The translations under genes and the position numbers were made by a program. Source: Bryum argenteum (Eukaryota; Streptophyta; Bryopsida; Bryales; Bryaceae). Taken from it: a stretch of 64,000 bases of DNA. A model generated the notes under the pieces. The model worked only from the letters and a program-made list of their open reading frames with translations. It was not told where the DNA came from and did no database searches. This document shows positions 19,395 through 62,577 of the stretch, one piece after another. The stretch lies in contig CM073321.1 in assembly GCA_037043015.1 (NCBI GenBank), positions 39,514,420 through 39,578,419 on the forward strand, written 5' to 3'. Numbering within the stretch: the first letter of the stretch is position 1; every line of letters starts with the position of its first letter.

Positions 19395-20524
19395 CTGAAT
19401 GCCAGCAGTAAACACAAAATCATGAGTAATCACTGGTAAATTAATACACCTCTAGTCAGAAATGTGTATAACTATTAAGAATGTATGGCCATTTAGCTCG
19501 ACTTGAGCTAAATGGTCATCAAGATAACTGTCTATGACTCACTCCGGAGCAAGTGTATAAAGAAGACCATTTAGCTTGAGTCGAGCTAAATGGTCATCCA
19601 GCTTCAACAGCTTCAAGGTGAGCGTGATGGACAGTTACATTGATGACCATTTAGCTCGACTCGAGCTAAATGGTCTTCAAGATATTTGTTCATCACGCTA
19701 ACCTTGAAGCATTTCTAAAAGGAAGACCATTTAGCTTGAGTCGAGCTAAATAGTCATCCAGCTTTAATAGCTTCGAGGTGAGCGTCATGAACAGTTATCT
19801 TAGTGACCATTTAGCTCGACTCGAGCTAAATGGCCTTCAAGATAAGTGTCGACTTGAGCTAAATGGCCTTCAAGATAAGTGTCGACTCGAGCTAAATGGT
19901 CATCTAGCTTCAACTGCGTCGACACTTATCTTGAAGCCCATTTAGCTCGAGTCGAGCTTAATGGGCATCAAGAAAACACTTCATCACGCTCACGATGCAT
20001 GTCTATAAAGAAGACGATTTAGCTCGACTTGAGCTAAATAATCCTCTTACAATCATCTCCCAAGAAAAATCAAATAATACTTAGGTGGATGACCATTCAG
20101 CTCGAGTCCTCCTATGAATCATCAAGTACACGACTTCGTGAACTTGAAGCATTTTGATGTGGATGCCCATTTAGCTCAAATTGAGCTAAATGGTCTTCCT
20201 ATGAATCATTCAAGTACACGACTTCGTGAACTCGAAGCATTTGTATGTGGATGCCCATTTAGCTCGACTCGAGCTAAATAAGCTTGTCCATATTTCATGC
20301 ATTTGCGATAAGAATTGCCTCGATATTCGTGCATAGTAATTTGTGAGAATGATTCTTGGGAACTGTGCACAAGTAAAATAGTATACTTGCCTCGATTTCG
20401 GTGCACACCAACTCCGACGAAATCCAATTTGCCATCAGGAATGCACCACGATGAAGGCAACATATGACCAATCAACAACAAATTCTTGTTACACATTGAA
20501 ATTGAGGTTATTGATCGAACTCAC
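19395..20524 (-). other. leader intron of element I-left transposase
   Basis: Donor GTGAGT at 20,524 (minus) and acceptor AG at 19,395, 1,130 nt, ending six nt before the start codon. The same intron occurs in the inverted copy at 61,377-62,577 with donor GTAAGT. It houses the palindrome array. Confidence 0.6.
19489..20280. repeat. palindrome array a (ATGG-flanked type)
   Basis: About nine full or near-full copies of the palindrome with core TTAGCTCGANTCGAGCTAA, extended outward to CCAT...ATGG, plus degenerate copies. Spacers of 50-90 bp are themselves related and alternate in orientation, for example the block around GTTCATCACGCT and its complement. Confidence 0.85.
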
Positions 20525-20960
20525 CCTCACGCCGTGCACAATAGCTGCAATACTTGAACGAAGGCCATGGACATCCTCAAAAGCAGCACGCGCATCATCT
20601 CCAGAGCTACTAAGAGTCCCAAACCCTAATCAGAATTTACTAAAGCAGAAGCACAAATGGAAAACGGAGTATAGGCGAAACGTAGTATAGTGAGACGAAG
20701 GGCAGAGGTGCGGAGGTGCGGAGGTAAGGCGAAGGGCAAATGTGTGAAAATACGAAGGTGCGGAGGAGCAAAAGAACGGAGCAGCAGATGAGCGAAGGAG
20801 CGGGATAGTGCGCAATGAGAAGGAAGAGACAGCAACACCAAGCGGGAAGAGAAATGACGGCAAAAAAGAGCACAAACTGGACAGAGAAAGGGCGCCAAAA
20901 ATAGCCACTAACGGTCAGAGAATTTTGAGTAAAAGCGATGTGGTTGGGAACTTCGGGAGG
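20525..20960 (-). other. 5' leader / promoter region of element I-left transposase
   Basis: Read on the minus strand this is strongly pyrimidine-biased, with repeated CTTCGC, CTCCTGCTC-like runs, followed by a conserved leader exon. It matches 60,880-61,376 inverted. Three overlapping frames in it are compositional. No clear TATA box. Confidence 0.45.
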
Positions 20961-22240
20961 AACGGGGACATCTTGGGGGAGTAAAAATCATTTGAAGTTT
21001 AGTCACCAAGAATTGTAATTAAAAAAAACCTAACTTTAATAATAGAGCTTTTACCATTGTTGCAAACATTTTTTACCACAATTCACCCGACCACACAACG
21101 GGAAAAAGAAACTTCAATCTAGTTGTTAAAGAGATAGTGTCATTTGTTATTAGAACCTTAGTTTACAAGATTACCTTAAATAGAGTATAGGGAGAAAAAC
21201 ATAAAAATGATTAAATTACATGAAACTTATACTTATTAAATGTTTAGAGGGAACACAAATTGTTCTCATCGTGTACCCTAGATTGATGTAGTCTTGAATG
21301 ATTTAATGTTATTTTATACTAAATTAAGTACGCAGGACTTCGAAGAGTTTGAATTCATAGAGCTGTGATAAAGTATCAAATGGAGAGTAGAATTATTGAG
21401 AAATTATGTGAATCTATTTGCATTCTTTCCATATTTCAATTCTAACAATTGTTAGGTTTATTTTGGTGAATTAGCATGTGAAATGATGGATGCTATTATC
21501 ATTCGCTAAGCCTTTATGTCTAGCGTTTATGCTCAATTTATCAAAACCGACAAGTGATGTGAGGTATTGTAACATTCGTACTTACCAAAATACGTGTAAT
21601 ACTAAAAGACTAATACTTTGCACTTTACAACGGTTATAGTAAATATAATATTGAGTTTTTTTAAATGTGATTCTATAAGATTAGTTTCTACTTAATTAGG
21701 TATGCTATATTAAGTATGATATTCAATAGGTTGAATGTGGAACATTTTAAACATAATATTCAATATATTTATGTGAGATACTATTATATAAGTATTTAGA
21801 CAGTGAATAAATTGAGGAATTATAAGTTTATTACTTAGCTTTTTCAACTTTATTATCTCCATATATGATATTTAAAATATAAAATTATTGGTTTAGAATT
21901 AAGTCTTGTTAACATTCAATGAGTAAATATATTTTACAGGTTTAGTATTCTATGTGTGATATTCAAATGTTATAATATTTAGTTTTACTTCAATTCTTAT
22001 GCTAAGATGATTTTTATAGAATGGTATCCTAAACCTATTTTCAAAAATTTTGAATGTATCCGCATTTAAGCTTTCTTCCACAAAGTTGCTATCTAGCTTC
22101 TCTTTACATTTCAATCCTAAATCATTAACTTCAAAAATAATTAACCTTTAATCCTAAACCCTTTACCCTATAACCAAAATCTTAATTTCTAAACTCTATA
22201 GCCTAAATTCTATACACTAAATCCTATACTAAATCCTTAA
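20960..22240. other. central AT-rich DNA of element I-left
   Basis: No gene. Matches 59,360-60,880 in inverted orientation, except for about 400 bp present only in that copy (roughly 60,372-60,780). The match stops sharply at about 22,236, which I take as a breakpoint. Confidence 0.6.
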
Positions 22241-22568
22241 AACCTCGTATTCGTTATATTGGGAAATATGCAGGATTTTGGGAGGTTGAAAGGGATTTAT
22301 GAGGCCTAAAAGCTGTACAATTGGCGCGTAAATTGTACAATTTAAATGACTTGATAACCAAAATATGATAGGGAGATGCTATAAACGTGAGTTTCGCACA
22401 TGTATTGAATGCCAGGTGTTGTTGGAAAGTGCAAATCGACACAAAAGCCATAGTATAAGAGGGGAGTTTGAGAATATTATTGAAATCTCCGAACTTTATA
22501 TATGATATATTACTCAAAGAGTAATTAATACATAGTTTATTCATTGTATTCAAAAGTAATTCAGCTAT

Positions 22569-23400
22569 CACTACCTAATGCGTTCCACCATATGCGATGA
22601 TACGAGACTTTATGAACGCACGTTGACGCTGACGTGTCCATCCGTAATCATTATCTTGCATCATAGGGCTATCCGGCGATCGTTGCAACCGTCGTCTTCG
22701 ATTATCCTCGATGCTTGATTTAGGAAGTGAGTGGCGCGCGCGTTTCGGAAAGGCTCCTAGTCGCTTCTTTTACATCGTCGAGAAACCAAGAGGCACTTTG
22801 GGGCTCACGAAGGTCCTTCCCGCACATAATGAATTCAACTCCGTCTTAGATATCAATTCCGCAAATTAAGGAGATTACAATCGTGTAACATACCTATTCA
22901 TGTATCTTGCGCGGACATCGAAGTTAGCTCGACTCGAGCTAATATAAGCTCTCGTAACAAAAGCATTGTACTTCATACTTTAGGAACCTAAAACCATTTT
23001 CATAGCACGATTACAAATGAAATCGGAAACAATGCTTCAAAGAGAGAAGAAAACTAACCTTTGGTGACAAATCTTGAGTAACGTCCAAGTCGTCATACAA
23101 CACGCGATTGGTTCGCCCACATCTATTCTCGATCTGTTTAACATTATGACCTACTGAAAGTGACCTCACGGGCGAAGGCGACTTATCCAAGTCACGTACT
23201 TGACAGGTCGCCACGGGATCATTTACCACTCCATCGTCGCGACCATGGTGGAGAAATCCATGGTTGATCGAGCCGTTGCGGATCGCATTAATAGACCTCT
23301 ACTCCGGAGTGTTGGCCCTACTCTCCTCCCCATTGATAAACGAATCTACCAAGCACGACAACCCCCTGCGGAACCTATTATAAATGATTGACACGATAAT
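22569..23400 (-). pseudogene. unknown 3' gene of element II, broken
   Basis: Two exon-like stretches. The first (about 23,390-23,060) reads through NDPVATCQVRDLDKSPSPVR and YDDLDVTQDLSPK to a donor-like GGTTAG near 23,057, with one in-frame TAG. The second (about 22,870-22,569) follows an acceptor-like CTAAG and reads MCGKDLREPQSASWFLDDV, then, one frame change later, DYGWTRQRQRAF to a final stop near 22,570. The gap between them contains a palindrome, as in the other introns of this element. I do not recognise the family. Confidence 0.4.
22922..22943. repeat. single palindrome, intron of unknown 3' gene
   Basis: GTTAGCTCGACTCGAGCTAA, a slightly trimmed copy, in the candidate intron between the two exon-like stretches. 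Confidence 0.7.
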
Positions 23401-23581
23401 CGACGGATAAACAGATTTGTCGATTGAGCTCATTCGAGAACATACAATATTCAAAATTAGACTCCTAATTACACTTCACTGACGATCTATACTGATTAAC
23501 AAAACTTGTTAATTACAATGTAGGAAAAACGAAACCAGGGTGAAAAATACAAAACTAAAACAAAGCTGGATGTACAAAGAC

Positions 23582-24744: not shown

Positions 24745-24835
24745 TCAACGCAATACAAGGTCATTGAAATCGAGGCAAACACGTGTGGTGGAAGGAGGAG
24801 TGTGAATCGAGCAGAATGCCTATGTGGTGATTGGC

Positions 24836-24861
24836 AATTTAGCTCGAGTCGAGCTAAAATG
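24836..24861. repeat. single palindrome upstream of FCP1-like gene
   Basis: Full copy with G at the centre, about 90 bp upstream of the FCP1-like start codon. Confidence 0.75.
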
Positions 24862-25854: not shown

Positions 25855-26283
25855 CTGCAGGACGACGATGAGAAGTCAGACAAAGGCATTTAGCTCGATT
25901 CGAGCTAAACTACATGCTACGAAGGAAATGAACGAGTTCATAACATAGAAGGAAATCAGAAGTATCAGAGGTATCACTTAGTTTAGCTCGACTCGAGCTA
26001 AACTACATGTGAAGGAATCTATTCATGTCTCGAAGCATGCAACTATCTGAGTTTAGCTCGATTCGAGCTAAACTTCATTCTCAAGAATGCAATCAAGGTA
26101 TAGAAGAAATGCGGCTTCAGGGACATGGAATGACATAGTTTAGCTCGACTCGAGCTAAACTATATTACGAGCAGAGCAGACCGACCGGATTTCAATGATG
26201 TCAGAGGAATTGAAGTGATTCAGGGAAGGAAAGGGTACTGACCCTGTTTAGCTCGAGTCGAGCTAAACTGGGCTGTATCTTAC
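25855..26283 (-). other. intron with five palindromes, ParB/MTase-like gene (element II)
   Basis: Donor ATG|GTAAGA at 26,283 and acceptor CCTGCAG|ATGG at 25,855, 429 nt. It interrupts the region right after the motif-I-like SGSKAVTAS. Exon ends join in a sensible frame. Confidence 0.65.
25886..26268. repeat. palindrome array b (AAAC type), 5 copies, intronic
   Basis: Copies near 25,889, 25,981, 26,051, 26,138 and 26,245, each with the 10-bp arms intact and the central base varying (T, C, T, C, G). Wholly inside the 429-nt intron. Confidence 0.85.
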
Positions 26284-27651
26284 CATGCTTGCTGTAACGG
26301 CTTTTGATCCGGAATAGATAAGGCAGATAGACTCATTGGGGCCGCAGAAAAGCTTGATGACTTGAAGGTAGAATTCCATTCTCAGCTCGTTGGGGAACAT
26401 GCTATACTCCACCTCATTGTACTTTCGGGGCTTCTCGTACAGAATGTGTTTGGGGGCTGTGTAGATAGATTTTATTTCCCCGCGGATCCTCACGGATGTG
26501 TGCTTGAGGAAGAGAAGTCGCACGGGCTCCAGTGCCTGCCTACTCTTAGCGGCAAACCCTCCAAGACGCTCGTTGGCGGCAGGCTCGTAAATGGACTGGA
26601 TCAACTCGTATTCCACACCTTCGAAGAACGAACTGGTCTTGGCAAAGTGCTGTACATGCTCAAGGTCCTTCTCATCCCCGCATATGAACGCCCCAGACAG
26701 AACGACCTTTAGAGAAGGCCTATCTTGTCCTCCGAGAACTTTCATGAAAATCTCAAAGAACGGTTTCTCGATAGTAGACTTCGCCTTTCCAGCGGACTCC
26801 GGAACGAGTCCAAGTCGATGATCCCGAAATTGATGTCCTCGCCGTCATTACTCCAGGAAGCTGCTTCCCAGTCATGAAGCTTCATCGGGTTCTCCCTTTG
26901 GAAGAACCGAGTATGAGCAATTCCACTCGTAGGTTCGAATTTCTTTCGGACTTCAAGGAATACGCGGAAGAACTCTTTGGCGTATGGAGAGAGAACCTCA
27001 TGTGTTGCTATTCCGGTGCATAGTCGCCTTCTGGTTGGCGTAGTATGACTCCGGAACACCCCACTCGAGAAGCACTCGCTTCGACGCTTTTGTGACGTGG
27101 TAGTCCTGCTTAAACTTCTTCCACGCCTGAACGTCAAGTTCGTCGCCCTTGAAAATACCGAGCGTAGGATCGATCTTGTGAAGCTGGAGCTGGGCGATAG
27201 CTTTGCGCTTCAATCGTTCTACGTAATCCTTCCATACGTAGCAGTCCTCGAGATGAGACTTACGCTGCTTGAGCACAACCTTCGGGTATTTCAGTTTCCT
27301 TGATGGCCCTGACTCGTTCAAGATGTGCCTGCAGAGCTTCTCGTGGTCCTTCTCGGAGAGGTTGCCAAGGAATTTAAAAAACTCTCGATTGAGAGTTGTA
27401 TCTTTGTCCGGAATAAAGCCCTCCTTGTCCTTGAACTTGGATCCGTCCATGGACTCGAGGTCGACGAGGTCTCCTTGGGCTGCGCAAGTAATCACAGATT
27501 CCCAGAGCTTATACAGGTTCTCTGGTGCAGTGATGATCTTGATCTCGTTAGTAAGGGTAAGCAATTTCTTGCCGCCCTTCTTGTTTAGTTCCCTTTGATG
27601 ATTGACAACGTCGATCATTGAGAACCTCTCGCTTACAGCCGCAAAGAATTT

Positions 27652-27963
27652 CTGCAAAATCGAATACAGGTAATTCGAGTAAGTATCGACTGTGGCTATA
27701 CAATTTAGCTCGAATCGAGCTAAACCAAAGGGATTCATGTTCACAATAATGCATTTTAAGTTTAGCTCGAATCGAGCTAAACTGCAGATGCAGTAGTGTT
27801 TAGCTCGATTCGAGCTAAACTGAACTGCATCTGCAGTTTAGCTCGATTCGAGCTAAACAGTACTGCATGTGCAGTTTAGCTCGATTCGAGCTAAACTTAA
27901 CTGCATCTTCAGTTTAGCTCGACTCGAGCTAAACATTTGACACAGTGGATCAAAAATGCTTAC
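27652..27963 (-). other. intron with six palindromes, ParB/MTase-like gene (element II)
   Basis: Donor GAT|GTAAGC at 27,963 and acceptor TTTTGCAG at 27,652, 312 nt. Its position equals the 137-nt intron 52,132-52,268 of the element I copy, which has a single palindrome. Copies start near 27,702, 27,760, 27,800, 27,836, 27,874 and 27,912, and several spacers carry GCAGATGCAGT-like inverted blocks. Confidence 0.7.
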
Positions 27964-29449
27964 ATCGTAAAGCGATTGCTTGGCTTGCAGCGCGCTTTGG
28001 CTTTATTCGTTGCCCTGCCACCCCGGTTGCATCGCGTTTTGGTGGAGGACACCCGAACTCTACCCACACTTTCCGAGCGGCGAGGATATTTGTTGCCCAC
28101 GTCGGCTTAAACTAAGCGAAGTGATTCACTCTGTTATAAAAAGCTGAAATTTTTCGCAGCTTGTCCACATCTTTTGTCCAGACTATGTACGTATTCCAAG
28201 TCCGGAAGTCCTTCTTAATAGGCTCGGGGACGGTGTCTTTCTGAATCATCTCCTTCGACGCAGCCACGTTGTACTGGCCGTTAATGATGTATAATTCGCA
28301 GTCCGTCATATCCCATTCGTCCTTGGGCTTGAACTTCAAGTCGGGCATGACGCACAGAGTCTGCTTGTGTGACCGGTCCGGCAAATTAATGAGGTAGTTC
28401 AGGAGGCTGGTTTGCCCCCTCTTCTCGAAGGCCCGGATTGTCCACGACGCCGGTGCTTCCTTCATCTTCATGGTGTCAATTTCCAATTTCCGCTGGGGAT
28501 TATTTTCGAAGACAAATGCGTCTTGGCAGTCCGAGAAGAATTTCTGGTATATGACATTGCAGTTGGTGTAGTCAATGTCTTCTACCTTGTCGACAATCAT
28601 AGGGATCTCTGAGACGGCGTCGTTGATAGCGTTCGCCAAATCCTCTTCGGATATGAGCTTGTTGCGTCTCGCGTCATCAGCTAGCTTCCTCGACCGTCTC
28701 TTTTGAGGCGATGACAATCCAGGGGTTCCAGAACTATTCGCCCCTGTGGATGTTACCAGGGGTTGATGATGGTGGACTCGTGTGGTGGTCCCGCTATCTA
28801 TGGGACTCCCCTGTCCCGGTAAGGCTCGAACGCTCGAAGAGAGGTCATTTGAGCTACTTGTTTTGCTTTTGTTGCAACCGATGCTCGAATGATGGAGTTG
28901 ACGACGTTCCTGAGCTTGAAGGACAGAGCTTTAGCTTTGAGCGGCCCATCGTTCTTCGACCTCCACTTTCCTTCAAGGATTTCAGCCCTGAGAGTGGATT
29001 TGACTTCGTCGAAATGTGATGCCTCTAAACTCTCGACCATTGCTACAAAGATCGAAGGGCGTCGCTCTTTGTGTTAATGGCTAGGATGAAATTGTAAGGG
29101 GTCGACCCTGGAGAAGAGCAAATGATCTTGATCACCTCCGGCGACTCGCAATCAAGCTCGGTGATTTTCGAGTCGACATCGATTGTCATATGATCAGCTA
29201 CGGGACCCTGGTAGCTTACACCGACCGTAAGGTGTGACGTGTGCGCAGCCCAAAGTGCTATCCAGGTTTTGACCTTGCTTGCGTCCTTGAATTCGTAGCA
29301 ATCAAGGTTCAAGGTATCATCGCCATCATCGTCTTGATCCACCGGTGCCCTTGGCTTGAAGAAGTGGCCGAGCAAGCCCTTCACTCTCTGCTCCTTTGCA
29401 TTCATCAAGAAATGTTTGAGTTCAGTGAATGTTTTTGATGTGACCGTTA

Positions 29450-31050
29450 TAGTTTAGCTCGACTCGAGCTAAACTGACTAGTAATCATCAGTCTTTTTTC
29501 TGATCGTGAAGTTTAGCTCGAATCGAGCTAAACTTCATATTTTGTGATTCCTTGTTTAGGGTCGCAGAGTTTAGCTCGATTCGAGCTAAACCGAGTGAGC
29601 TATTAGAGCGAGTTTGTAGGTCGCATTTAGCTCGAGTCGAGCTAAACTACCTCGACAAGAGTATGCATATTCAAATCGAGCTAAATCCTAACAAGAAATA
29701 AATCCATAACAAGAAATATTGAAGGTATAATCCTAGAAACGAAGGGTCAAAGTTTAGCTCGAGTCGAGCTAAACTTAGTTTAATCTGATGTGAGTTGGTT
29801 ACTTGATTTAGCTCGATCACAATAGTCTCATTATTGACATGTTTTATTTAGCTCGAATCGAGCTAAACTTTATTCTTTGAGAATCGGAAAATTTACATTA
29901 GCTCGAGTCCTTTTTGGGGTAATTGCGGACACACTTAGCGTCACGGTTTAGCTCGAATCGAGCTAAACTGAGTTAGATATTGGGCGAGGTTTATTCATTA
30001 GTTTAGCTCGACTCGAGCTTAACGAATTAGATTTGAAATAATTGTAATGATATCGTTTAGTTTAGCTCGATTCGAGCTAAACTTTGAGTTTGAGGATTAG
30101 AAAACAAATATTACCTCACTTTATTTTGGTTCATTCAGACTTACTCAGGGTCTTAGTTTAGCTCGACTCGAGCTAAACTGAGTTTCATATTGGGCGAGTT
30201 GGATGCCTCGGTTTAGCTCGACTCGAGCTAAACTTACCGATTTCAAATAAGCGTAATGAAATTGTTTAGTTTAGCTCGAATCGAGCTAAACATTAGACTT
30301 TGAGGACTTGAATATTTACATTAGCTATCTTACATTCGGACTTACGTAGGGTCTAGTTTAGCTCGAATCGAGCTAAACGGATCTGATTTTAGCTCGACTC
30401 ATTTGAACTTCCCGATTTTCAGATGATTTTATTGAAATCGTTTAGTTTAGCTCGATTCGAGCTAAACTTTAGAGTTTGAGGATTTGATTGTTTTCATTAC
30501 CTCACTCTAATTTTTAGTAAATTTAGTCTTACTTAGACTCTAAATGTAGCGAATCGAGCTAAACTGAATGGTTATCTCTCCAATCTATAAGTCTAGTTTA
30601 GCTCGAGTCGAGCTAAACTGAGGCACATTTTGCGCCAGTTGGATTCCCAAGTTTAGCTCGACTCGAGCCAAACTGGTTAGGTTTCTTTAATATTTTTATA
30701 GCGTGTAGTTTAGCTCGATTCGAGCTAAACGTTTATTCCTTAAGGTTAGTCAGGCTCTAAGTTCTGTTAGTATTGATTAGGTCTATTGTAAATATTTTAG
30801 GGTCACGAGTTTAGCTCGAGTCGAGCTAAAACTTACTAACAACCGGTGCAAGTTGGGTGCCTAAGTTTAGCTCGACTCGAGCTAAACAGATTGGACTTAG
30901 GTAGTTCTCAGGTGGACGTATAGTTTAGCTCGAATCGAGCTAAACTTCTTAGTCTAAGGTTGAAAATAGTTATGTTTCTAAGTGCATTCCTTCCAAGGTT
31001 CATTCTACTCACTCTAAGGAGCTTAGTTTAGCTCGATTCGAGCTAAACTT
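29450..31050. repeat. palindrome array c (AAAC type), about 21 copies
   Basis: About 21 full copies and five half-sites over 1.6 kb just upstream of the first recognised exon of the ParB/MTase-like gene. A higher-order unit of about 270 bp with three palindromes repeats, marked by spacers containing ATATTGGGCGAG, then GATTTCAAATAA, then TTTGAGGATTAGAAAA. Arms are far better conserved than spacers. Probably in one long intron; I could not fix its donor. Confidence 0.85.
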
Positions 31051-33040: not shown

Positions 33041-33099
33041 TAAATTTTAATTCATTCACTTTCAGTACTCGTCTTCTTTTGAGCTCCATTAGAATCTCA

Positions 33100-34225
33100 A
33101 TTCACACATAGTATTTTTTAATTATAATTGTATTACTATTAGTTTCCATTCACTTTTATAACGCATCTTTTTTTCGCAACATTAAAATGTTATTTCAAAC
33201 ACGCTAAGTTTAATTTGAAGTGTAATAATATAAGTTTCCATTCACTTTTATTACACATCTTTTTTAGAGCAACATTAGAATGCTAATTCAAATAGGCTAA
33301 GTTTAATTCTAAGTGTAATAATATTAGTTTCCATTCACTTTTATTACACATCTTTTTTAGAGCAACATTAGAATGCTAATTCAAATAGGTTAAGTTTAAT
33401 TCTAAGTGTAATAATATAAGTTTCCATTCACTTTTATAACGCATCTTTTTTTCGCAACATTAAAATGTTATTTCAAACACGCTAAGTTTAATTTTAAGTG
33501 TAATAATATAAGTTTCCATTCACTTTTATTACACATCTTTTTTAGAGCAACATTAGAATGCTAATTCAAATAGGTTAAGTTTAATTCTAAGTGTAATAAT
33601 ATAAGTTTCCATTCACTTTTATTACACATCTTTTTTAGAGCAACATTAGAATGCTAATTCAAATAGTTTAAGTTTAATTCTAAGTGTAATAATATTAGTT
33701 TTCATTCACTTTTATTACTCACATTTTTTAGAGCAACATTAGAATGCTAATTCAAATAGGTTAAGTTTAATTCTAAGTGTAATAATATTAGTTTCCATTC
33801 ACTTTTATTACTCATATTTTTTAGAAACAACATTAGAATGCTAATTCAAATAGGCTAAGTTTAATTCTAATTCTTGTAATAATATTAGTTTCCATTCACT
33901 TTTATTACTCACATTTTTTAGAGCAACATTAGAATGCTAATTCAAATAGGTTAAGTTTAATTCTAAGTGTAATAATATAAGTTTCCATTCACTTTTATTA
34001 CTCACATTTTTTAGAGCAACATTAGAATGCTAATTCAAATAGTTTAAGTTTAATTCTAAGTGTAATAATATTAGTTTTCATTCACTTTTATTACTCACAT
34101 TTTTTAGAGCAACATTAGAATGCTAATTCAAATAGTTTAAGTTTAATTCTAAGTGTAATAATATTAGTTTCCATTCACTTTTATTACTCACATTTTTTAG
34201 AGCAACATTAGAATGCTAATTTGAT
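33100..34225 (+). repeat. 93-bp tandem array, about 12 units, element II centre
   Basis: Units share TTTCCATTCACTTTTATTAC, then TTTTTTAGAGCAACATTAG and TTAAGTTTAATTCTAAGTG, with a 92-94 bp period. Two units near 33,141 and 33,419 share the variant ATAACGCATC. The array lies between the divergent genes. Confidence 0.85.
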
Positions 34226-34613: not shown

Positions 34614-35879
34614 TGGTTCCTCCATTGAGTCAATCAGGTAGTTGCTACTGTAGACTGTCGGCTAAAGGCACAACAAGTTTTTTATGGATATTTTTAAAAT
34701 AATGCTATAAGAAATTCGTTGAGATTTGAATTTTAAAAAATTGGTAATGGTTTAAATTTTAAATTTCGTTATTCCTTGACATGTGCCTAGTTTTCCCTAG
34801 CACAATATTTAATATGTGAAATCATTATTACTTTTTAATTAGTATATGCTATACATACGTAGTATCCTTTAATAAAGATTTAAGTGTTTAATTTCCAAGA
34901 TTTGTTCAATCATTTTAATGTACATAAGTATCACTTTTGAATTCAAATCTTCGTACATGGTTTATTTTCCAAAGTTTGGAAATCACAAGGTACAAAAGTA
35001 TTGCATTCAAGTATAATAGGTTCTATTGGTTTCTAACTTTTGTCCATAAGTAATCACTACACATTTCCAAATAATGCCATGTATTCCAAACATACCTTTA
35101 CATAGAAATTACATGTACAAGTATAGGATTTATTACAAATATATAATATTTCCTATATTGGTAATTATGCCTATTTAATACATTATTATAGGAATACATT
35201 ATGTATAGTAATTTATAGTACGTTATTTAACATCATTATGAATATAGTGCAAAATTTAATTATAATTTTGAACGTTATCATCTTATAGCATGGTTATAGT
35301 TAACTACAATTATAATGATATTATTATTTATTACTAATAACTATTTATGTTCGTATATAATTTAAACTAAATAGCTTAGATGAGGATAAAGTACTTAAAA
35401 TATTAATTTGGGATAATGAGCACATTTCACATTAAAGGGTGATCATAGTACATTAATGTCCGTTATAAATGTAAGTATCTATTTCACTTAAGATGAGTAT
35501 TTCGTTTCAATTTCTTTATTAGAAATCATTGACATAAGGTCACCTATAATTGACCAAATATTTTGATTTATGCTTTGATGTAACATAGCAAGGTATTCTA
35601 ACTATTTGCACACAAATTGATAGATAATTTAAGAATTTCTATCAGAGTTACTTAACTTCGAGCATAAAACCTAGCATAAATAATTAAGAATATAGAGTTG
35701 CTCTTGCAAGATGATTAGATGAACAAAAGCCTAAAATTATGAGTGATAGCAAACGTACAAATTAAAGTTTTCGTAATGCTGTAGATGTTGTATGTGATGC
35801 TTACAATAGCAATCCAAGTTAAGTATTGAGGATTCACAGTATAGTGTTTCGGATTTAGAGTTTTGGAGTTTAGGATATA

Positions 35880-35964
35880 GGGGTTAGGTTTTAGGGTTTA
35901 GGGTTTAGGGTTTAGGGTTTAGGGTTTGGGATTCAGGGTTTAGGGTTTAGGGTTTAGGGTTTAT
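35880..35964 (+). repeat. interstitial telomeric repeat (TTTAGGG)n
   Basis: About ten TTTAGGG units with a few variants (TTTGGGA, TTCAGGG). This is the plant-type telomere unit. Ordinary sequence continues on both sides, so it is interstitial. Confidence 0.9.
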
Positions 35965-37189: not shown

Positions 37190-39225
37190 GTAAGACTCCA
37201 CGCATATGGCAGTTTATTGAATTGTGTCTTTGGTATCGTACGTGCTTCTTGCATTTTACAATTCAACTTCGGCGTCATAAACCCTAAACCCAGAGAAGCG
37301 TTCCACATGCGTCGTGGACGCCTTTGCTGTGATGCTTAAGATTGTGTGTTTTCAATGTAAGTGCAGGCAAGCCTTCATTTTCAATGCATCCGTCTCGAGT
37401 GCAAACCTATTGCTTTCAGAGAATTAGGAGAAGCGGTACTCCGAAATATGCGCTGTGATTATCGGGAGAGAAAGAGTGAAGACATTTAGCTCGAGTCGAG
37501 CTAAATACCAGGAGTACCACAGTGACGCAGTTTAGCTCGAATCGAGCTAAATTGCGGGGCTTGTATAGTCGAGTAATTTAGCTCGAATTGAGCTAAATTG
37601 CGGGGCTTGTATAGTCGAGTAATTTAGCTCGACTCGAGCTAAACTACAGGACTTTGCAAAGTTGAGAGATTTAGCTCGACTCGAGCTAAACTATGACTAA
37701 TTGTAGACATAAAAGTTTAGCTCGATTCGAGCTAAACTCCATGTTCAATAGAGTTTGTTGAAAGCTAACCAGTTTAGCTCGAGTCGAGCTAAACTACATA
37801 ATCCAGCTGGCGCAAACTGTGCCTCAGTTTAGCTCGACTCGAGGTCAATTAGACGTTTAAGTTTGAGAAAATTGAAATCCATTCAGTTTAGCTCGAGTCG
37901 AGCTAAACTAAGGCACCCCACTCGCCCAATATGTAACTCAGTTTAGCTCGACTCGAGCTAAGCGTGACCTAAGTATGTCCGAATTTACCTAAATAGAAGA
38001 GTGAGCTAATGAAAACATTCTAATCCTCAAACTATAAAGTTTAGCTCGAGTCGAGCTAAACTTAACTATTTCATTACAATCATTTGATATCTGGTAAGTT
38101 TAGCTCGTATCGAGATAAGGCGAGGTATCAACCTCGCCCAATATGTAACTAAGTTTAGCTCGATTCGAGCTAAAGCGTGACCCTAAGTGTGTCCGAATTT
38201 ACAAAAAAAGGCAGAGTGAGTTGATGTATATATTCTAGTTCTCCAAGTACGAAGTTTAGCTCGATTCGAGCTAAACTTAACGATTTCATTACAAGCCTTT
38301 GAAATCGGTAAGTTTAGCTCGAGTCGAGCTAATCTAAAGATTCAATGTCGCCCGAAGATGTAACTCGTTTTGCTTAAGTCAAGCTAAACGTGACTCTAAG
38401 AAAGTCGAATTTACCGATATAGAAAAGAGAATCGATGTAATTAGTGAAATCCTTAGACTCAAGTTTAGCTCGATTCGAGCTAAAGCGACCGATTTCATTA
38501 CGAGACTCTTGAAAGGCGAGACTTAGCAAACTCGAGCAATTTAGCTCGATTCGAGTCAAGTATACGACCTCGAAAGTCGAACACTTAAGCTCGAGTCGAG
38601 GTGAATAATCCAAATTATCTAGTCCAAGAATTAAATTTGGACTTGATTTATATAAGGTGGTTTACCCACTCGACTCGAGCTAAAGCTAAGATATATTGTA
38701 GTTGATAAGTTTAGCTCGAGTCGAGCTAAAGTGTAAGGCATCCGATACTACGTCGGTTTAGCTCGATTCGAGCTAAATTGCAAAGATAATCGATCTCGAA
38801 AGTGTTTGCTCCATTCTAGCTAAACTGTCGAACTCATTTTCGCAAGGAAGTTTACTTGGAGTCCAACTATTCTTTTTATCAATCAATTCTTCGAGGCGTT
38901 TAGCTCGATTGGAACTATTTAGCGTTACATGTCAATATCTAAGGTTTACCTCGTCTTCAGCTAAGACCTTGGACTCTATTAACTATGGTGGATGTGATGA
39001 CATACACTTCTTCAAAAATCGACGTTAAGTTTGTGACACTCCAATTTGTAACATTCATTTTCAATAAATCCGTTTCAAACTACATGTGCTCGCCTTCTAA
39101 AGGGCGTTGGTTAGATCAACTGGAGCTATACTATAGAAGGAGTCGTTATATCAATATTGTCAGGGACTTTGCTGTGATCAATAGCCTTTCCTATAACTTG
39201 TTTCTATTTTCTTGTGCATCTGCAG
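37190..39225 (+). other. leader intron of element II transposase
   Basis: Donor GTAAGA at 37,190 and acceptor CATCTGCAG ending at 39,225, 2,036 nt. It ends one nt before the ATG at 39,227. It contains palindrome array d. Confidence 0.65.
37482..38960. repeat. palindrome array d (AAAC type), about 17 full copies
   Basis: About 17 full copies plus degraded ones. Spacers such as CACTCGCCCAATATGTAACT are complements of those in array c, so the two arrays lie in the same orientation relative to each gene. Copies decay towards the right end (38.3-38.96 kb). Confidence 0.85.
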
Positions 39226-39226
39226 C

Positions 39227-43798: not shown

Positions 43799-46700
43799 TC
43801 AACCTCAACTTGCCCTTTGGAACATACACCCTATTTTGCTTGAACTTGATCATACCTTGGTGAAGCCGGATACCTTTGGGCTTCTTGCCACACCTAAGTT
43901 CATCTAAGAACTTTTGAGCCTCGGGGTCTTTCATATATGCCTCCCTTATCCGCTTTGCCAAATTACCTTCTCCCGCATACATCACTCTCAAGACTTGCGT
44001 GGTGCTTGGCCTATGTTCATCCTTCCGGCTTAGTGCGTCCGGCACCACGTTCTCCCGGCCCGGCTTGTGGATCAACTCCGCATTCATAAGCACTAAGGTA
44101 TCATACCACCTCAATTGCTTTGGTGTGACTTTGGTTTGTGTCTCAAAGTATTTCAATGAAACATTATCGGTGAATACCTTGGTCTTGTGGAGATCAAGGT
44201 AATGTTGCCATGTCTTCAAACAATGCACCACGGCAAACATCTCCTTTTCATGCATTGGCCAATTGATTTGAGTGCCATCCAATTTCTTGCTCTCAAATGC
44301 AATTGGCCTTCCTTTTTGCATGAGCACTCCCCCGATGGCAAAGTCACTTGCATCGGTATGCACCTCAAAAGGCTTCTCAAACTCGGGGAACTTCAATACC
44401 GGCGGGGAGGAGAGTTTCTCCTTGAGTTCTTGAAAGGCTTGCTCACATGACTCGGTCCACTCCAAGGTCAAGTTCTTCTTAAGCAAATCGGACATGGGCT
44501 TAGCAATCTTGGAGAAGTTCTTTATGAACCTCCTATAATAATTAGCCAACCCAAGAAATGACCTCACTCCTTTTTGTGAAGTAGGTCGGCTCCACTTCTT
44601 GATTGCTTCTACCTTCTTGTGGTCCGGTTTGACACCTTGCCCCGTCATAATGTGTCCCAAGAACTCAATCTCTTGCAAGCCAAACTCACTTTTCTCCCCA
44701 TTTGCATACAATTTATTGTCCCTAAGTTTTTGAAGCACAATTGCAAGGTGTTGTGCATGCTCTTCCTCGGTTTTGGAGAACACCAATATGTCATCAATGT
44801 AGACAATGACAAACACATCCATCTCTTGATGGAACACCGTATTCATAAGGATTGTGAACGTTGATGGGGCGTTGCACAACCCAAAAGGCATCACCAAAAA
44901 CTCATAAGACCCATATCTAGTCCTACAAGCGGCTTTCTCCACATCCTCGGCCGCAATCAAGATTTGGTAATATCCCGACTTCAAGTTGATCCGGCTAAAA
45001 TACTTGGCCCCCGCCAACCGGTCAAAGAGATCATCAATTCGAGGCAAAGGGTAGTTGTTTTTGATGGTGATCTTATTGAGCGCCCGGGAATCCACGCACA
45101 TGCGTAGTTTCCCTCCTTTCTTGTCCACAAACAAGACCGGTGCTCCATAAGGTGACTTGCTTTGGAGGATATATCCCTTTGCCAAAAGCTCATTGAGTTG
45201 TTTCTTCAACTCTACCAACTCCCTTTGGTTCATCCGGTAAGGTGCCTTGGATGGCGGTGCCGCTCCCGGCACCAACTCGATCTTGTGATCAACCTCTCTT
45301 CGTGGCGGTAACTCATCCGGCAACTCCTCCATGAGAACATCACCAAAGCCTTGGATGACCTCCCGAATACACTTGGGAGGTGTTGAGTTAGAAGTAGGCT
45401 TATTCCCTTCAACTCCCAAATCGGTCCTTAGCATTATCAAGAACCGGGTTTCCTCTAACTCCTCTAAGTTCACCAAGTTGATTCTACTCCCTAATATCTT
45501 GGGTGCCTTGGTGAACTCCAACTCAATCTCTTTGCCTTCGGGGTTGACAACCACAGTCAATGGCCGCCTCCTTATATCCACCCCATAGGTGTCAAAGAAA
45601 GTATTACCCAAGATGAGATCAATCCCATCCATCTCACAAACCGTGAAGTTTTCCACAAATGTGAAGTTTTGACACTTCACTTCTACTCCCGTAGCTACAA
45701 GGCATGTTTGGTGAGGCTTGCTTTTTGCAAACCTCACTTGGACGGGCTTGCTTGCCTTGCTCAAATGCAAGCCCATCCTCTTCGCAGCTTCCGGACTTAT
45801 GAACGAGTGGGTTGCCCTTGTATCCAACAGAAAGCAATTGTCACTTTTACCAACAACCCCTTTTAGGAACAACAAGCTACCACCTAACTTGGAGCAACTT
45901 GCTCTTGCAATGAAACCCCCTTCCAATAGGTGACTTGTAACAAGGATTTTCCTATTTTCCAAACTCACCTTTGGTTTGGAGCAATCCTTTGCCATGTGGC
46001 CCTTTTCTCCACAATTGTAACAAGTTATGTGACTTGTCTCTTTCTTGGACTTGTCCCCACTTTTGGTTTTGTCCTTGGCAAACTTGTCCTTCCCATCCTT
46101 GGAAGGCCCACCCTCACCGCCTTTATGCTTTTGCCAACCATGTCTCTTGTGTTGGCGCTTTGACTGCGACTTGCCTTGCTCTCCGGTGGAAGTCCCTTCT
46201 TTAAAAGTCTTCCGGTGACCTTCATCATCACCAATTCTTTCTGCCAACTTGAGCAAATCGGCACAAGTTTCTGGCAGCTTTGGCATCCTGAATAATGCCC
46301 GCTCCGCCCAACCTTGGAGTCCATTGAAGAAAATGACCTTTTTGGCCAATTCATCTAACTTCGGGAGCACATTTAAATGTTCATTGAAATCCCTCACATA
46401 GGTATGAAGGGTGCCCGTTTGCTTCAATCGCACAAGGGCCATGCCATCCCGAATGTCTTGGTACTCCGGGGTAAAGCGCTCACTTAGGATCTTCTTGAAA
46501 CGGGTCCAAGTTAAGTTGCTCACTACTCCCGCATTTTCATCCCGGAAACGAGTCCACCACAAAAGAGCATGCTCTTTCAAGAAGGTCACGACAATGGTGA
46601 TCTTGTCCTCTTCACGAGCTCTTTGGGCCTCAAAGTAGAGCTCAGGTTCCACAATGAAGTCCTTGACCTTGTTTGCCTCGCCCAATCCCGTGAAGGAAGA

Positions 46701-46833
46701 GGGCAAGTTAGTCTTGCACAACTTGCGGGAAGAAGGGCTTGATGCCCTCCCCTTGAGCTCCTTGATCTCTTTTTGCATGACTTGAAGAGTTTTGACAAGC
46801 TCATTGAACATTTCATCTCGTGCCTTCTGCTTG
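43710..46833 (-). CDS. gag-pol polyprotein body (Gag, PR, RT, RNase H, start of IN)
   Basis: A long open frame of about 1,040 codons to the frameshift near 43,710. It contains a retrotransposon-gag domain, a CCHC knuckle [14 protein letters not shown] (about 45,980-46,020), a protease active site reading [10 protein letters not shown] (about 45,801-45,836), an RT with YIDDILVFS (about 44,776-44,812), an RNase H with HTDASD and [10 protein letters not shown], and [11 protein letters not shown], the HH half of the integrase zinc finger. The protease site has Arg where D[ST]GA is expected, so it is probably inactive. The frame is otherwise free of stops, which suggests a fairly young insertion. 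Its 5' end is split by the CACTA element at 46,837. Confidence 0.9.
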
Positions 46834-51019: not shown

Positions 51020-52170
51020 ACAAGGAAGAGGAGGGGGAGCAAGTGCTTCTCTGAAGCTTATCCCTCTGCAATGCCGTTGAAACGCTCATTGCTGGCAGAC
51101 ATGTAGTTGGCTGCGTTGCGAGCGTACTCGTCCTTCAACTTCTTGTCGACGTAAACCATTGCCTGGCAGTGACGATCAACGTTGGAGGTGATGAACATCC
51201 AAACCTCAGGATTCTTGATGTGAGGATCGGTCACTGTGTCTGCCCACACATCAAGGAATTCTTGGAAGTATGGACTCTCAATGTCGTCCACTCTACTTCC
51301 ACTCCCTGGGACAAATCGCAAATCAATCAAGCCTATATCACACTTGCTAGATTGGTTCCATGCGTAGTTCTTGTCCCAAATCTCGAATTTGAATTCGGAA
51401 GAGTAAAAGAGCCGCGTGTAAACAATTGGTGCAGGAGGTTCAAATGTCCCTTTGACATCCAGAAACTTCTTGAAGAACTCGGCTGCATATTCCGAAATCT
51501 CTGCTGCTCTCCTATTCTTTGTCTGCTTTTGACGGTAGAGAGTAAAGAACGAGTCGCCCGGGACCGAGAGAAGCATGGACATAGTCTGACGAGTCAGATT
51601 GTATTCCACCTTAAATTTCCTCCAGTTGTTGACTTCGAAGTGCCACTCGGAGTCGAACAAACCCAAGAAGGGCTTGAGGTTGTGCAATTCCCTCGCGACA
51701 GTGTTCTTCCTCTTCCGATTCTCGACCCACTGCTTTGCACTCATACACTGGAAGTACTTCTTAGCAGGCTTCCTCACGACCACCTTAGGGTAGGGCAATG
51801 TCCGATCCGGAGTCTCGTTCAGCAAGTGCTGCGCCAACACATCGAGGTCCTCTGCGTCTAACTGCCCCATTCCCTTGAAGAACTCCCTGCTCAAGGTAAA
51901 CTTCTTTGCGGCGGTTTCCCAATCTTTCGCCTGATTGAATGGGAGCTCGGTGTCGGGGTCGATCAGCTCTCCAAGACCGTAGTCTGTGATGAACCTCTTC
52001 TACAACTCGTAGACGTCGTCCGGAGATGTGATGATGAGGAGCTCGTTGCGAAGGTCGGACGGTCTGACGATCTTGTCCTTCGCGTTAGTCTTGATGCTGA
52101 TGAACCTCTTCACCATAGCAGCCGCGAATGCCTGCACCAAAGCCAAACGATTAGGAAACAACCTATGCTG

Positions 52171-52193
52171 TTTTAGCTCGAGTCGAGCTAAAA
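52171..52193. repeat. single palindrome in intron 2 of ParB-like gene
   Basis: Full copy, central G, inside the 137-nt intron 52,132-52,268. Confidence 0.85.
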
Positions 52194-53630
52194 CGACGTC
52201 CCCAAAAACTTCGACAGACAATGCAAACAACGCCAACCAGAAAAAGAAAAGAACAAGTAATCTCATACCTCATAACGCTTACGGTTATCTACTTCAACCG
52301 GTGTTTCACGTTGATGTGGCTTCTTCAGTTTTTGAGGGCGGCCATAGTCTTCCCAAACCTTTCTGGCGCCCATGATGTTCGTTGCCCAAGAAGGTATGAA
52401 CGTGCCAGCATTGTTCCTCTTATTCGCCATGGCCGACACGTCCAGAATCTTGCCAATGTCGGAATGCCACACAACATGGGCTTTCCATTTCTGAAGGGCA
52501 AGGATCTTCGAGTCGTCGATCTTCTTGTCACGAATTAACTGTTTCGCAGCCTCAACGTGGTGCTGCCCGTCGATAATTCGGAACCGACAAGATTGGACCA
52601 GATCTTCCCAATCCCACATCTCAGGCTCATCTTTAATCTTCGGCATAATGATGATGGTTTGCCTGGAAGTAACATCGAGGGAATTCATCAAGATGATCTT
52701 GTAATGCGCTATTCCGGGCGGTTCCAGAGATCGCACGATAAACCTTGGTTCGGCAGGGTCGAGCAGGTCGATCGACACGTCAAGCGGATTGTCACGACCG
52801 AAGATATAACACTCTGCACAGTTGTCCCAATAGTCCTTCAGAGACTTCGTCGCTTCCTCATACTTGATCTCCTTCTCCGAGACAGCCACGTTCATTGTAG
52901 GGTTCATGAACGTAAGTGTGCTGCCGGAAGATTTGCTCCTTTTGGAGCCAGAGCTGGATGAGATCGGGTTTGGCCGCTTTGATCCCTGCCCGCCTAGACT
53001 TCCCTCTGGAGTGCCTAGACCCGACGGAGCATTCTCGGATGGAGCCTGCAACAGTAGACTCCCGGACCGTTTCATCGGAGCCTTGCCTTTCTTCTTTGCA
53101 GTCTCGAAATCAGACAGAGCCTTCCAGATCTGCGCAGTGTATGGAATGTAAGATCTGACGAAGGCTTTCGTCGAAGACACATTGGGCTGCAATCTCGTGT
53201 CGATATGATGAAGCTGAGTGGCATCCACCTTGCCGACCATATAATTGAGGATGAAGTCGTGGGAGAAACGGACTTCATTGGGGGGAAAAACAATAGTGAA
53301 GACGAAACCTTCGACCTCCACTGCTTCGAACTTGATCAGGAGGATTTCGTCTTCATAAGTAACAAGTTCGATGAAGGCATCAAGACACAGAGGCAAAAAT
53401 GCCCCGTGAGACCCCGATTGTTGATAGAAGAAGAAATGGGTCTTGTTCATCGGACGAATAGACCAAGAGTTAATGGAATTCGTCTTGGGGGTCCTCAACC
53501 TCCCCCATTGCACGTCCACAGCAATAGCTGCAAGCGGATCGTCTGCTGCTTCGAGGTGTACTGGTGCAAGGAATCCCTCCAGGGCTTGTATGTTATAAGT
53601 GACCTGTGGATAACAAATTAACAGAGGGTG

Positions 53631-53654
53631 AATTAGCTCGATTCGAGCTAAATG
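53631..53654. repeat. single palindrome in intron 1 of ParB-like gene
   Basis: Copy with central T inside the 92-nt intron 53,604-53,695. Confidence 0.85.
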
Positions 53655-53913
53655 GACACATTAGATGGGAACATCGATATCAAGTGGAGTATTACCTCAG
53701 GAACAGACTCTTGCTGCTCCGCATCCATGTCGACTTCCATTTCAGGCTCGGCAGGTGCATTCGCAGCCATCTGAACAATTCTGGCAGTATGTTTGGTTCT
53801 CGGCATCACTGTCATTCAACAAACAAGAATCACATGTAAGATTCACAAGGGCAGTAAAACATCATCATTATCTTGACGATCAAATCCGACATGTCTTGAT
53901 TAGGTGGCGAGAT

Positions 53914-54445
53914 CAATTAGCTCGACTCGAGCTAAATGGGCTTGACCTCAAAACGACGATTGAGACCATGTAGCTCGAGTCAGGCTTAATATGCATGACC
54001 CTGAACCTAATAGTAAGTCCATTTAGCTCGACTCGAGCTAAATGGGCTTGACATCTAATACGGAAAATGGTCTCGACGAGTAAAATGGTCAAGATGTGAT
54101 GAGTCGAGCTAAATGGAATTAACGAGTTAACATGCTTGTTTGGCCTTCATCTGCAACATGGCAGTGAGTACATTTAGCTCGACTCGAGCTAAATAGGCTT
54201 ACTTCTCTGATTCAGGTCAAGTCCATTTAGCTCGACTCGAGCTAAATGGGCCTGATCCTGTTTGAGGTCCGTGACCATTTAGCTCGAGTCGAGCTACATG
54301 GGCTTACAGTCCTGTAGCAGGTCAAGCCCATTTAGCTCAAGTCGAGCTAAATGGGCTTGCACTGAATCAGAGCAGTAAGCCCATTTAGCTCGAGTCGAGC
54401 TAAATGGGCTTACTGCCTTGTTGAAGGACAAGCCCATTTAGCTCG
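53914..54445. repeat. palindrome array e (ATGG-flanked type), about 9 copies
   Basis: Copies near 53,917, 54,021, 54,173, 54,224, 54,277, 54,329, 54,384 and 54,432, plus degenerate ones. It lies upstream of exon 1, in a leader intron whose acceptor GACAG ends at 53,809, two nt before the ATG. Confidence 0.85.
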
Positions 54446-54501
54446 ACTCGAGCTAAATGGGCGTGGTGGTCTTGGAGATAAATAATTTAATGAAGTTAAA
54501 T

Positions 54502-54587
54502 TGGCATCGAGCTAAATGGGCATCAAGCTAAATGGGCATCGAGCTAAATGGGCATCGAGCTAAATGAGCACCGAGCTAAATGAGCTG
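54502..54587 (+). repeat. tandem half-sites of the palindrome
   Basis: Five to six head-to-tail copies of a 16-bp unit GCATCGAGCTAAATGG, i.e. one palindrome arm without its mirror arm. Confidence 0.8.
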
Positions 54588-54729: not shown

Positions 54730-55250
54730 CCAGAATTACGAACTTACAAGATAGCTCGTCAAACATTGCGCTGAAATGCGCAGGCAGGAGCGATGGAGGA
54801 GGCAGGTGCGATGGAGGAGGCGCGAAAAGCAGCGACAACGAGCGTAGGAAGGACGTGGAAAGCAGCAACAGCGGGAGCGATAAGAAACGATGCGAAAACG
54901 ATAAGAAACGACCTCGTCACAGCTCGATGAGAACCTCGGCGAGAGCAGAGAGATGCGCAGATGGAGGGTGCGAGCGACACAACGGAGGGCGCGAGAGACA
55001 CAGCGGAGGGTGCGACGTTGGAAACGACGAGCGAGAGCGACAACGCGGGAGGACACACAGGAGCGACACAGCGGAGGGAGGGTTGGTGTGAGGCAGGCGG
55101 ACTGCTGTTGGCAGTGGCCGTTCCCGCCCAAGCAGCCCGTCCGCCGCCTTTTGAAGGCAGCCCGGGCTGCCCACGCGGCCTTGTCTGCCCGGGCTGCCCG
55201 GATTTGTCGGATTTTTTTTCTTTTTTTTTTTTTTTGAAACTTTAAAAGTT
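54730..55250 (-). other. 5' leader / promoter of element I-right ParB-like gene
   Basis: GC-rich, purine-biased on the plus strand with repeated GCGAGAG, GACACAGCGGAGG units, ending in a T-run near 55,210-55,235. Same character as the transposase leader. Cys/Ser/Arg-rich frames are compositional. Confidence 0.45.
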
Positions 55251-56933: not shown

Positions 56934-56970
<37 letters not shown>

Positions 56971-60880: not shown

Positions 60881-61376
60881 TGTCCCCGTTCCTCGTGAAG
60901 CTCCTCGTTCCTCCCGACGTTCCACACAACATCGCTTATACTCAAAATTCTCTGACCGTTACCGGCCTCTTTTGGCGCCCTTTCTCTGCTGAGTTCGTGC
61001 TCTTTTTTGGCGCCATTTCTCTTCCCGCTTGGTCTTGCTCTCTCCTCATTTGCGCACTATGCGCTTTCCGCTCCTCTTCTGCTCCACTCCTGTGCTCTTT
61101 CCGCTCCTTCGCTCCTGCTCCGCTCCTGTGCTCTTTCCGCTCCTCTCCTGCTCCGCTCCTCTTGCCCTTCGCCTCACCTCCGCACCTTCGCATCTCTGCC
61201 CTTCGTCTCAGTACACTACGTTTCGCCTAAAGTCCGTTTTCCATTTGTGCTTCCGGTTTTGTAAATTTTGATTAGGGTTTGCGACTCTTAGTAGCTCTGG
61301 AGTTGATTCGCGTGCTGCTTTTGAGGATGCCCAGGGCCTTCGTTGAAGTATTGCAGCTGTCAAGCACGGTGTGAGC
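60880..61376 (+). other. 5' leader of element I-right transposase
   Basis: Pyrimidine-rich CTCCTGCTCCGCTCCT-like repeats followed by a conserved leader exon ending GAGC|GTAAGT at 61,377. Frames in the repeats are artefacts. Confidence 0.45.
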
Positions 61377-62577
61377 GTAAGTTCGATCAATAACCTCAAT
61401 TTCAATGTATAACAAGAATTTGTTGTTGATTGGTCATATCTTGCCTTCATCGTGGTGCATTCCTGATGGCAATGTGGATATCATCGGAGTAGTTGTGCAC
61501 GGAAATCGAGGCAAATATACTATTTTACTTGTGCACAGTTCCCAAGAATGATTCTCACTATTTGCTGTGCACGAATATCGAGGCCGTTTCATATAACAAA
61601 TGCATGAAATATGGACAAGCTCATGAAGTCCTGTACTTAAGGATTCATTGGAAGACCATTTAGCTCGACTCGAGCTAAATGGGCTTTTTGCTCTGATTCA
61701 GTGCAAGCCCATTTAGCTCGACTCGAGCTAAATGGGCTTACTGCCCTGTAGCAGGTGAAGCCCATTTAGCTCGACTCGAGCTAAATGGGCGTACTGCGCT
61801 GATTCAATGCAAGCCCATTTAGCTCGACTCAAGCTAAATGGTCACGGACCTTAAACAAGGTTAGGCCCATTTAGCTCGAGTCGAGCTAAATAGGCTTGCA
61901 CTGAATCAGCGCAGTACGCCCATTTAGCTCGAGTCGAGCTAAATGGGCTTCACCTGCTACAGGGCAGTAAGCCCATTTAGCTCGAGTCGAGCTAAATGGT
62001 CATGTAGCTTTAACTGCGTCGTGGTGAGTGGTGAACAGTTATCTTGAAGACCATTTAGCTCGACTCGAGCTAAATGGTCATTAAAAGAACTGTTCATCAC
62101 GCTTACCTCGAAGCTGTTGAAGCTTGATGACCATTTAGCTCGAGTCGAGCTAAATGGTCTTCCTCTTCGACATGCTTCGGGGTAAGCGTCATGTATTAAG
62201 ATCTTCAAGACCATTTTGCTCGAGTCGAGCTAAATCGTCATCCACCTTTAACTTCTTCGCGCTGAGTGGTGAAAAGTTATTTTGAAGACCATTTAGCTCG
62301 AGTCGAGCTAACTGGTCATTAAGAAAACTGTTCACCACGCTTACCTCGAAGGTGTTCATGTATTAAGATCTTTAAGATCATTTAGCTCGATTGGATCTTA
62401 ATGGTCTTCAAAATACACGTGCATCGTGAGTAAGTGGTGGATTCTTATCTTGAAGCCCATTTAGCTTGAGTCGAGCTAAATGGTCATAATTTCTCAATGG
62501 TCTTAGACATTTCTGACTGCACGTAGATTAAGTTACCAGTGATTTCTCATGATTGTTTGTTTATTGCTGGCATTCAG
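61377..62577 (+). other. leader intron of element I-right transposase
   Basis: GTAAGT donor at 61,377, GGCATTCAG acceptor at 62,577, 1,201 nt, six nt upstream of the ATG. Conserved in the inverted copy. Confidence 0.65.
61651..62483. repeat. palindrome array f (ATGG-flanked type), about 12 copies
   Basis: About 12 copies with CCAT...ATGG flanks every 50-90 bp. One spacer is CTGCCCTGTAGCAGGTGAAG and its complement recurs near 61,945, so spacers form longer inverted repeats. Confidence 0.85.

Follow-up and report, generated by a model that had tools for sequence, protein, structure and literature searches.

Palindromic DNA sites are bound by the bacterial proteins ParB, Noc and KorB, whose usual nucleotide (CTP)-binding motif is of the GERR type. 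Among eukaryotic transposons, VANDAL21 of Arabidopsis has motif arrays upstream of its gene VANA21 and inside introns of two others, VANC21 and VANB21, and VANC21 binds these short motifs, which are arrayed as tandem repeats (PMC5735166, accessible portions), while VANC induces the loss of silent marks and its target repeats are said to diverge rapidly (PMC10398659, accessible portions). Sola1-1_Ec32 from Ectocarpus, a DNA transposon of 21.5 kb, encodes an accessory protein with ParB-like and N4/N6 DNA methyltransferase parts, and accessory proteins of this kind are said to have been reported in transposons of green and red algae (PMC12477816, accessible portions). Here we describe a 19–21 kb DNA transposon from the moss Bryum argenteum, with terminal inverted repeats (TIRs), a 4-bp target site duplication (TSD) and two divergent genes, one encoding a DUF7869 protein and the other a ParB-like protein, which carries many copies of a short palindrome in introns and in the 5′ regions of both genes. 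The stretch analysed, hereafter the window, comprises 64,000 nucleotides (contig CM073321.1, positions 39,514,420–39,578,419, forward strand). We put at about one half the probability that the palindromes are sites for a dimeric DNA binder encoded by the element, likeliest its own ParB-like protein, which would keep the copies expressed against silencing.

A scan of the window at up to three mismatches returned 88 matches to the core palindrome between 19,493 and 62,479, 67 of them exact, where shuffled sequences gave 0.02. They fall into eleven groups at the places given by the first-pass annotation, which had counted some 80 copies of one palindrome in at least eleven places and whose positions agree with ours. 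The arms extend mostly over 10–15 bp on either side of a free central base, and copies within the arrays stand in tandem at spacings of mostly 38–152 bp. Across the genome (258.8 Mb, 25 contigs) the core occurs at 11,514 places with up to two mismatches, the reversed control at three.

The assignment of these copies to one transposon family is supported by a shared element structure and gene pair. A complete element, termed type II, occupies 22,241–42,532 (20,292 bp), holds 56 of the 88 window palindromes and was delimited from its ends and flanks by the 24-bp inverted repeat AACCTCGTATTCGTTATAWTGGGA, found at 22,241–22,264 (plus strand) on the side of the ParB-like gene and at 42,509–42,532 (minus strand) on the DUF7869 side. 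This TIR occurs at 87 genome places with up to two mismatches. The 67 ends with at most one mismatch make 23 opposed pairs within 40 kb, 19 of which span 18.9–20.4 kb, and every pair combines one ParB-side and one DUF-side end, told apart by a single TIR base. DUF7869 matches lie inside at least 16 of the 23 pairs (24 matches chosen by eye from a partial list), and a 4-bp TSD accompanies eight of ten pairs tested. The window copy is without such a TSD and its flanks are different; Ty3/gypsy open reading frames (ORFs) at 42,464–46,811 adjoin its right end and its left flank matches copies of the type I element, which may explain the missing duplication. Between its two genes lie a TAGGGTT telomere-like array (35,842–35,963, 17 copies) and a 93-bp tandem array (33,053–34,221, 12.5 copies).

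The type I TIR, AACACGTAATTCGTTATAATGG, was taken from a common end in the aligned downstream ends of type I copies and occurs at 608 + 622 genome places, with none for the reversed control; a 4-bp TSD flanks eight of nine type I pairs and two of two miniature inverted-repeat transposable elements (MITEs). The type I element E (C1:507,054–528,556 on a contig designated C1) measures 21.5 kb and is flanked by the TSD CAAG, the other measured copy being the type II element of the window at 20.3 kb. MITEs of 151–166 bp with the type I TIR are present at L010 (7888–8053, TSD TTAA, in agreement with 4 bp), L051 and L052, and by eye each contains two degenerate palindrome-like stretches. Position 65,146 was considered as an end of the type I element and rejected, as there is a local rearrangement there. 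In all copies retrieved with both genes, the pair is divergent and the arrays flank each gene on its inner, 5′ side.

The seven intervals that the first-pass annotation had set as introns all run from GT to AG on the coding strand, for which they were probably chosen, and between them account for 57 of the 88 copies. Twelve copies lie between identified coding exons: six in intron 1 of the type II ParB-like gene (27,652–27,963, minus strand; palindromes at 27,705–27,932), five in its intron 2 (25,855–26,283, minus strand; 25,890–26,266) and one in intron 1 of the type I ParB-like gene (52,132–52,268, minus strand, with an in-frame joint; 52,173–52,191). The remaining four intervals, with 45 copies, are predicted leader introns: 19,395–20,524, with nine copies at 19,493–20,277 upstream of a rearranged type I DUF7869 gene; 37,190–39,225, with 22 at 37,486–38,918 upstream of the type II DUF7869 gene; 53,604–53,695, with one at 53,633–53,651 just upstream of type I ParB-like exon 1; and 61,377–62,577, with 13 at 61,660–62,479 upstream of the type I DUF7869 gene. 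Outside any assigned intron there are 31 copies, namely 29 upstream of ParB-like exon 1 (21 at 29,454–31,046 in type II and eight at 53,917–54,456 in type I) and two singles, at 22,924–22,942, 684 bp from the left type II terminus, and at 24,839–24,857. The statement that nearly all copies are intronic was thus too strong, at most 57 of 88 being so placed.

Introns are nevertheless a regular location of the palindrome. By eye, every testable intron 1 of the ParB-like gene among the fetched copies holds at least one (10 of 10), as does the stretch right after exon 2 in eight of eight copies, a count that omits copies cut off earlier (the type I copy of the window and L023/24) and the lone exon fragment of L019. 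Of five type I copies, three contain both exon-edge strings of intron 1 and two contain one of them. Coding exons, as far as they could be set, avoid the palindrome: none of the 56 copies of the type II element lies within them (13.8 expected), and a single copy of the 45 in element E touches the tail of an ORF, where this extends beyond the exon (10.6 expected). Translated palindromes beside an exon were recognized in 6 of 78 homologous proteins (shuffles give 0.05 + 0.3), distributed as five of nine exon 2 homologues, 1 of 61 DUF7869 homologues and none of eight exon 1 homologues.

Twenty stretches of 10 kb were taken around or beside the first listed palindrome places on C1, and 17 contain an ORF match to the ParB-like or DUF7869 gene, a count made without a matched control; L016, L018 and L027 gave no match to these ORFs of the window, and the first of them spans the interval between two such genes. 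The converse comparison was blind to the palindrome. Twelve DUF7869 loci on nine contigs were drawn from 151 listed matches (150 of 1,609 candidates were scored) and read from 1.2 to 3.6 kb upstream of the match (2.4 kb); the query was the window's own DUF7869 copy, and the sample therefore leans towards its relatives. Core matches at up to three mismatches were found upstream in 12 of 12 loci, and in none of 12 with a scrambled control. Eight loci have 12–25 copies of the palindrome class described so far, class A, and the other four have three to five core matches, none exact, because another palindrome, class B, stands there. The first-pass annotation had named a satellite scattered through the genome with no tie to these genes as one outcome that would count against it, and the 12 loci show the opposite.

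Tandem arrays with the spacing seen in the window could have arisen as a neutral satellite, through slippage and gene conversion, and the two arrays beside the genes of one element are partial inverted copies of each other at 75–81% identity (29,847–30,381 and 37,938–38,484 in type II; 54,171–54,465 and 61,704–61,998 in type I). Such an origin is extremely improbable, given the palindromes at all 12 loci picked blind to them, the existence of exact single copies, one of them alone in its intron (52,173), and the conservation of the arms across diverged spacers. This conservation was measured by requiring the core to be exact in one sequence only and comparing it across 183 high-scoring segment pairs of at least 1000 columns. 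In 218 site comparisons, which are mutually non-independent and for which the alignment register inside arrays is not guaranteed, the arms are 0.93–0.95 identical in each of the five identity bands with sites, compared with 0.58–0.79 for the flanks, and the central base is variable (0.37–0.72). That arms stay intact while spacers drift, as the annotation had noted, consequently holds once the bias of finding the copies by their similarity is controlled. Of the two causes it had offered, selection on the motif stands, whereas gene conversion alone is unlikely because it would homogenize the spacers together with the arms. A further repeat of 16 bp, TAAATGGGCATCGAGC, is present in tandem at 54,497–54,582 and is similar to half of the palindrome.

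The pattern of change within copies bears on whether the palindrome is read as DNA or as RNA. In 315 copies collected at up to four mismatches, and hence preselected for similarity, positions 1–9 on both sides carry 1.4–1.9 bits each, C or G occupies the centre of 263, and transitions at the two CpGs (C-to-T and G-to-A) account for 100 of the 261 core changes. Arm changes are one-sided in 237 cells and compensated in eight; together with the CpG transitions this is the pattern that a DNA dyad whose half-sites are independent should show. Perfect inverted symmetry within introns, and the symmetrical difference between classes A and B, would also suit action in RNA, as intronic hairpins or duplexes between copies affecting splicing or small RNAs. 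We consider this highly unlikely, as the one-sided changes run against it and positions −1 and +1, which would lie in the loop of a hairpin, are conserved at 96–98%. Nor is there any sign of RNA pairing in the mismatches of 267 copies oriented by gene, where G-U wobbles (26) are about as frequent as A-C mismatches (23), with 69 others.

The class B palindrome, TYAACTCGANTCGAGTTRA, is found at the four remaining palindrome-blind loci with eight sites each, and in all 32 printed sites the −6/+6 pair is A/T, where class A has G/C. It occurs at 2,449 genome places with up to one mismatch, three for the reversed control. L066, which was assigned to class B by motif class only, has a ParB-like gene beside class B arrays, with about 27–37% identity to types I and II over the aligned pieces; class B sites at 1,508, 1,584 and 3,023 lie between its first two exons and directly downstream of the second, and no class A site was found in it at up to two mismatches. 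Motif class and DUF7869 clade change together, and an alteration that is symmetrical and runs through entire arrays would suit a dimeric binder whose specificity has changed. As both classes of array occur in a single genome, co-evolution of protein and DNA can be tested directly. The class B loci also weigh against a host factor, a transcription activator or insulator whose sites the elements exploit as enhancers, since an unchanged host factor would not favour a symmetrically altered motif in a set of loci. Arrays on the 5′ side of both genes, and a core common to element types whose ParB-like proteins are about 30% identical, would be natural for such a factor; the motif goes with element genes in 17 of the 20 stretches fetched, a small part of the 11,514 places, and we judge this explanation decidedly unlikely.

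What the element itself encodes offers a candidate binder. For residues 240–372 of the ParB-like protein the top 13 structural rows are all ParB-family chains, and the modelled region resembles the ParB N-terminal fold. We infer that the palindromes would be recognized as double-stranded DNA by a dimeric transposon-encoded protein, most probably this one, which would mark the non-coding stretches of its own copies (the 5′ regions of both genes and the introns) and might keep them expressed against silencing by the host, in the manner of VANC in VANDAL. A more specific proposal, doubtful but worth stating, is that of a eukaryotic ParB–parS-like system, in which a ParB-fold clamp would load at parS-like palindromes in introns and 5′ regions, spread from them and shield the copies from silencing, motif and protein having co-diverged into at least two specificities, A and B.

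Several observations weigh against a ParB-like binder. The model has a mean predicted local distance difference test score (pLDDT) of 56 and a best Foldseek E-value of 0.05, none reaching 0.001. No Pfam hit was found for the protein, the best weak matches of its exons being DndB (0.15, Pfam) and ParB-like PHROG families (0.076 and 0.26), with other weak Pfam and PHROG matches mutually inconsistent and no match among PDB sequences. GQHH or GQHC stands at the place of the GERR-type nucleotide motif. A DNA-binding domain could not be recognized, and the model of exon 2 was unusable (pLDDT 35). Types I and II share the same core despite ParB-like proteins that are only about 30% identical (23–30% amino acid identity for exon 1), and a core shared by distant element types sits badly with the rapidly diverging repeats of VANC. 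Seventy-two of the 78 homologous proteins are without a translated palindrome, although most would not reach one. Finally, the two palindrome-like stretches seen by eye in the MITEs would also fit a role in transposition. This last point leads to sites for the transposase, putatively the DUF7869 protein, or for a transposition complex, comparable to the subterminal motifs that En/Spm elements have. Besides their retention in the MITEs, single copies 460–684 bp from three of four examined element ends and the shift of motif class with the DUF7869 clade are in keeping with such sites; most copies, by contrast, are kilobases from the ends, at gene 5′ sides and in introns, and no palindrome lies within 1.5 kb of the right type II end even at six mismatches. 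We regard this alternative as unlikely.

DUF7869 is the sole Pfam match in scans of the element ORFs, no PDB sequence match was found for the protein, and its Asp and His residues include invariant ones among 14 homologues. The type II DUF7869 gene (39,212–41,012, plus strand; PF25273, E = 1e-32) is split into two ORFs by a broken frame in the window copy, with homology running to about 42.1 kb (L010 matches up to 42,110), and the related locus L053 has a single ORF of 1036 amino acids. The type I DUF7869 gene (62,780–64,000, plus strand) runs past the window end and matches other copies up to 65,146, while that of the rearranged type I copy lies at 15,978–19,227 on the minus strand. Both ParB-like genes are also on the minus strand. 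In type II the 3′ part of exon 1 is an ORF at 27,964–28,717 that may extend further 5′, exon 2 (26,284–27,651) was placed by tblastn between copies and has a broken frame in the window copy, and similarity to an exon 3 beyond 25,855 was judged by eye; in type I, exon 1 (52,269–53,519; ORF 52,263–53,519) contains the ParB-like fold at residues of about 240–372, and exon 2 (51,020–52,131) is cut off at 51,020. A stretch of the ParB-like gene resembling methyltransferase motif I aligns alone (hhalign 33.8, compared with 17.9 reversed and 28.4 for the best of 40 shuffles); no methyltransferase family is among the Pfam matches, and a full methyltransferase domain is unsupported.

C1, with 44.1 Mb or 17% of the genome, carries 54 of the 87 type II TIR ends, and the DUF7869 homologues include two Ceratodon genes with KC19_VG names, located on a contig of 110.5 Mb; C1 may, on these grounds, be a sex chromosome. 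Window positions 328–16,069 are a near-duplicate of C1:529,288–545,000 (93–96% identity in two long aligned blocks), which includes a kinase-like ORF and a repetitive ORF and reaches the end of the compared sequence. Neither the exact palindrome nor relatives of the ParB-like protein were found in the viral contigs searched.

Compared with the CTP-dependent clamps of bacteria, ParB–parS, Noc–NBS and KorB–OB, the moss case differs in being a eukaryotic transposon with an altered nucleotide motif. The KorB operator, which we take to be TTTAGCSGCTAAA, presumably has half-sites resembling the outer arms of the moss palindrome. No report of parS-like palindrome arrays with a ParB-like transposon gene was found in a literature search that reached few subscription papers, and the motif halves and TIR, searched as text strings, gave unrelated titles among the matches listed. 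Members of the Sola superfamily have a 4-bp TSD, as do the moss elements. Sola1-1_Ec32 is likewise a giant DNA transposon with its ParB-like gene on the strand opposite the transposase, whereas the methyltransferase part is at most degenerate in the moss element and ‘palindrom’ is absent from the main text of its description (PMC12477816, accessible portions). While the first-pass annotation knew of no described element with an intron-resident palindrome system of this kind, VANDAL21 has arrays both in introns and upstream (PMC5735166, accessible portions). Like the moss elements, VANDAL21 and VANDAL6 with VANC are multi-gene DNA transposons in which short motifs form dense arrays in introns and in non-coding sequence upstream, the tandem repeats turn over and motif variants are specific to lineages; VANC motifs are of 8–9 bases, and ‘palindrom’ does not occur in the accessible portions of either report (PMC5735166, PMC10398659). 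The moss elements, in contrast, combine a DUF7869 gene with a ParB-like gene and a TSD of 4 bp, and their motif is a dyad palindrome of 19 bp that is retained in distant element types; the MuDR-type transposase of the Mutator-like VANDAL elements was not found in Pfam scans of the moss element ORFs. If the proposed role is correct, the moss elements would provide a second, unrelated case of transposons that mark and protect themselves through sequence-specific binding in introns, and one in which this self-protection is built on a bacterial-type ParB fold.

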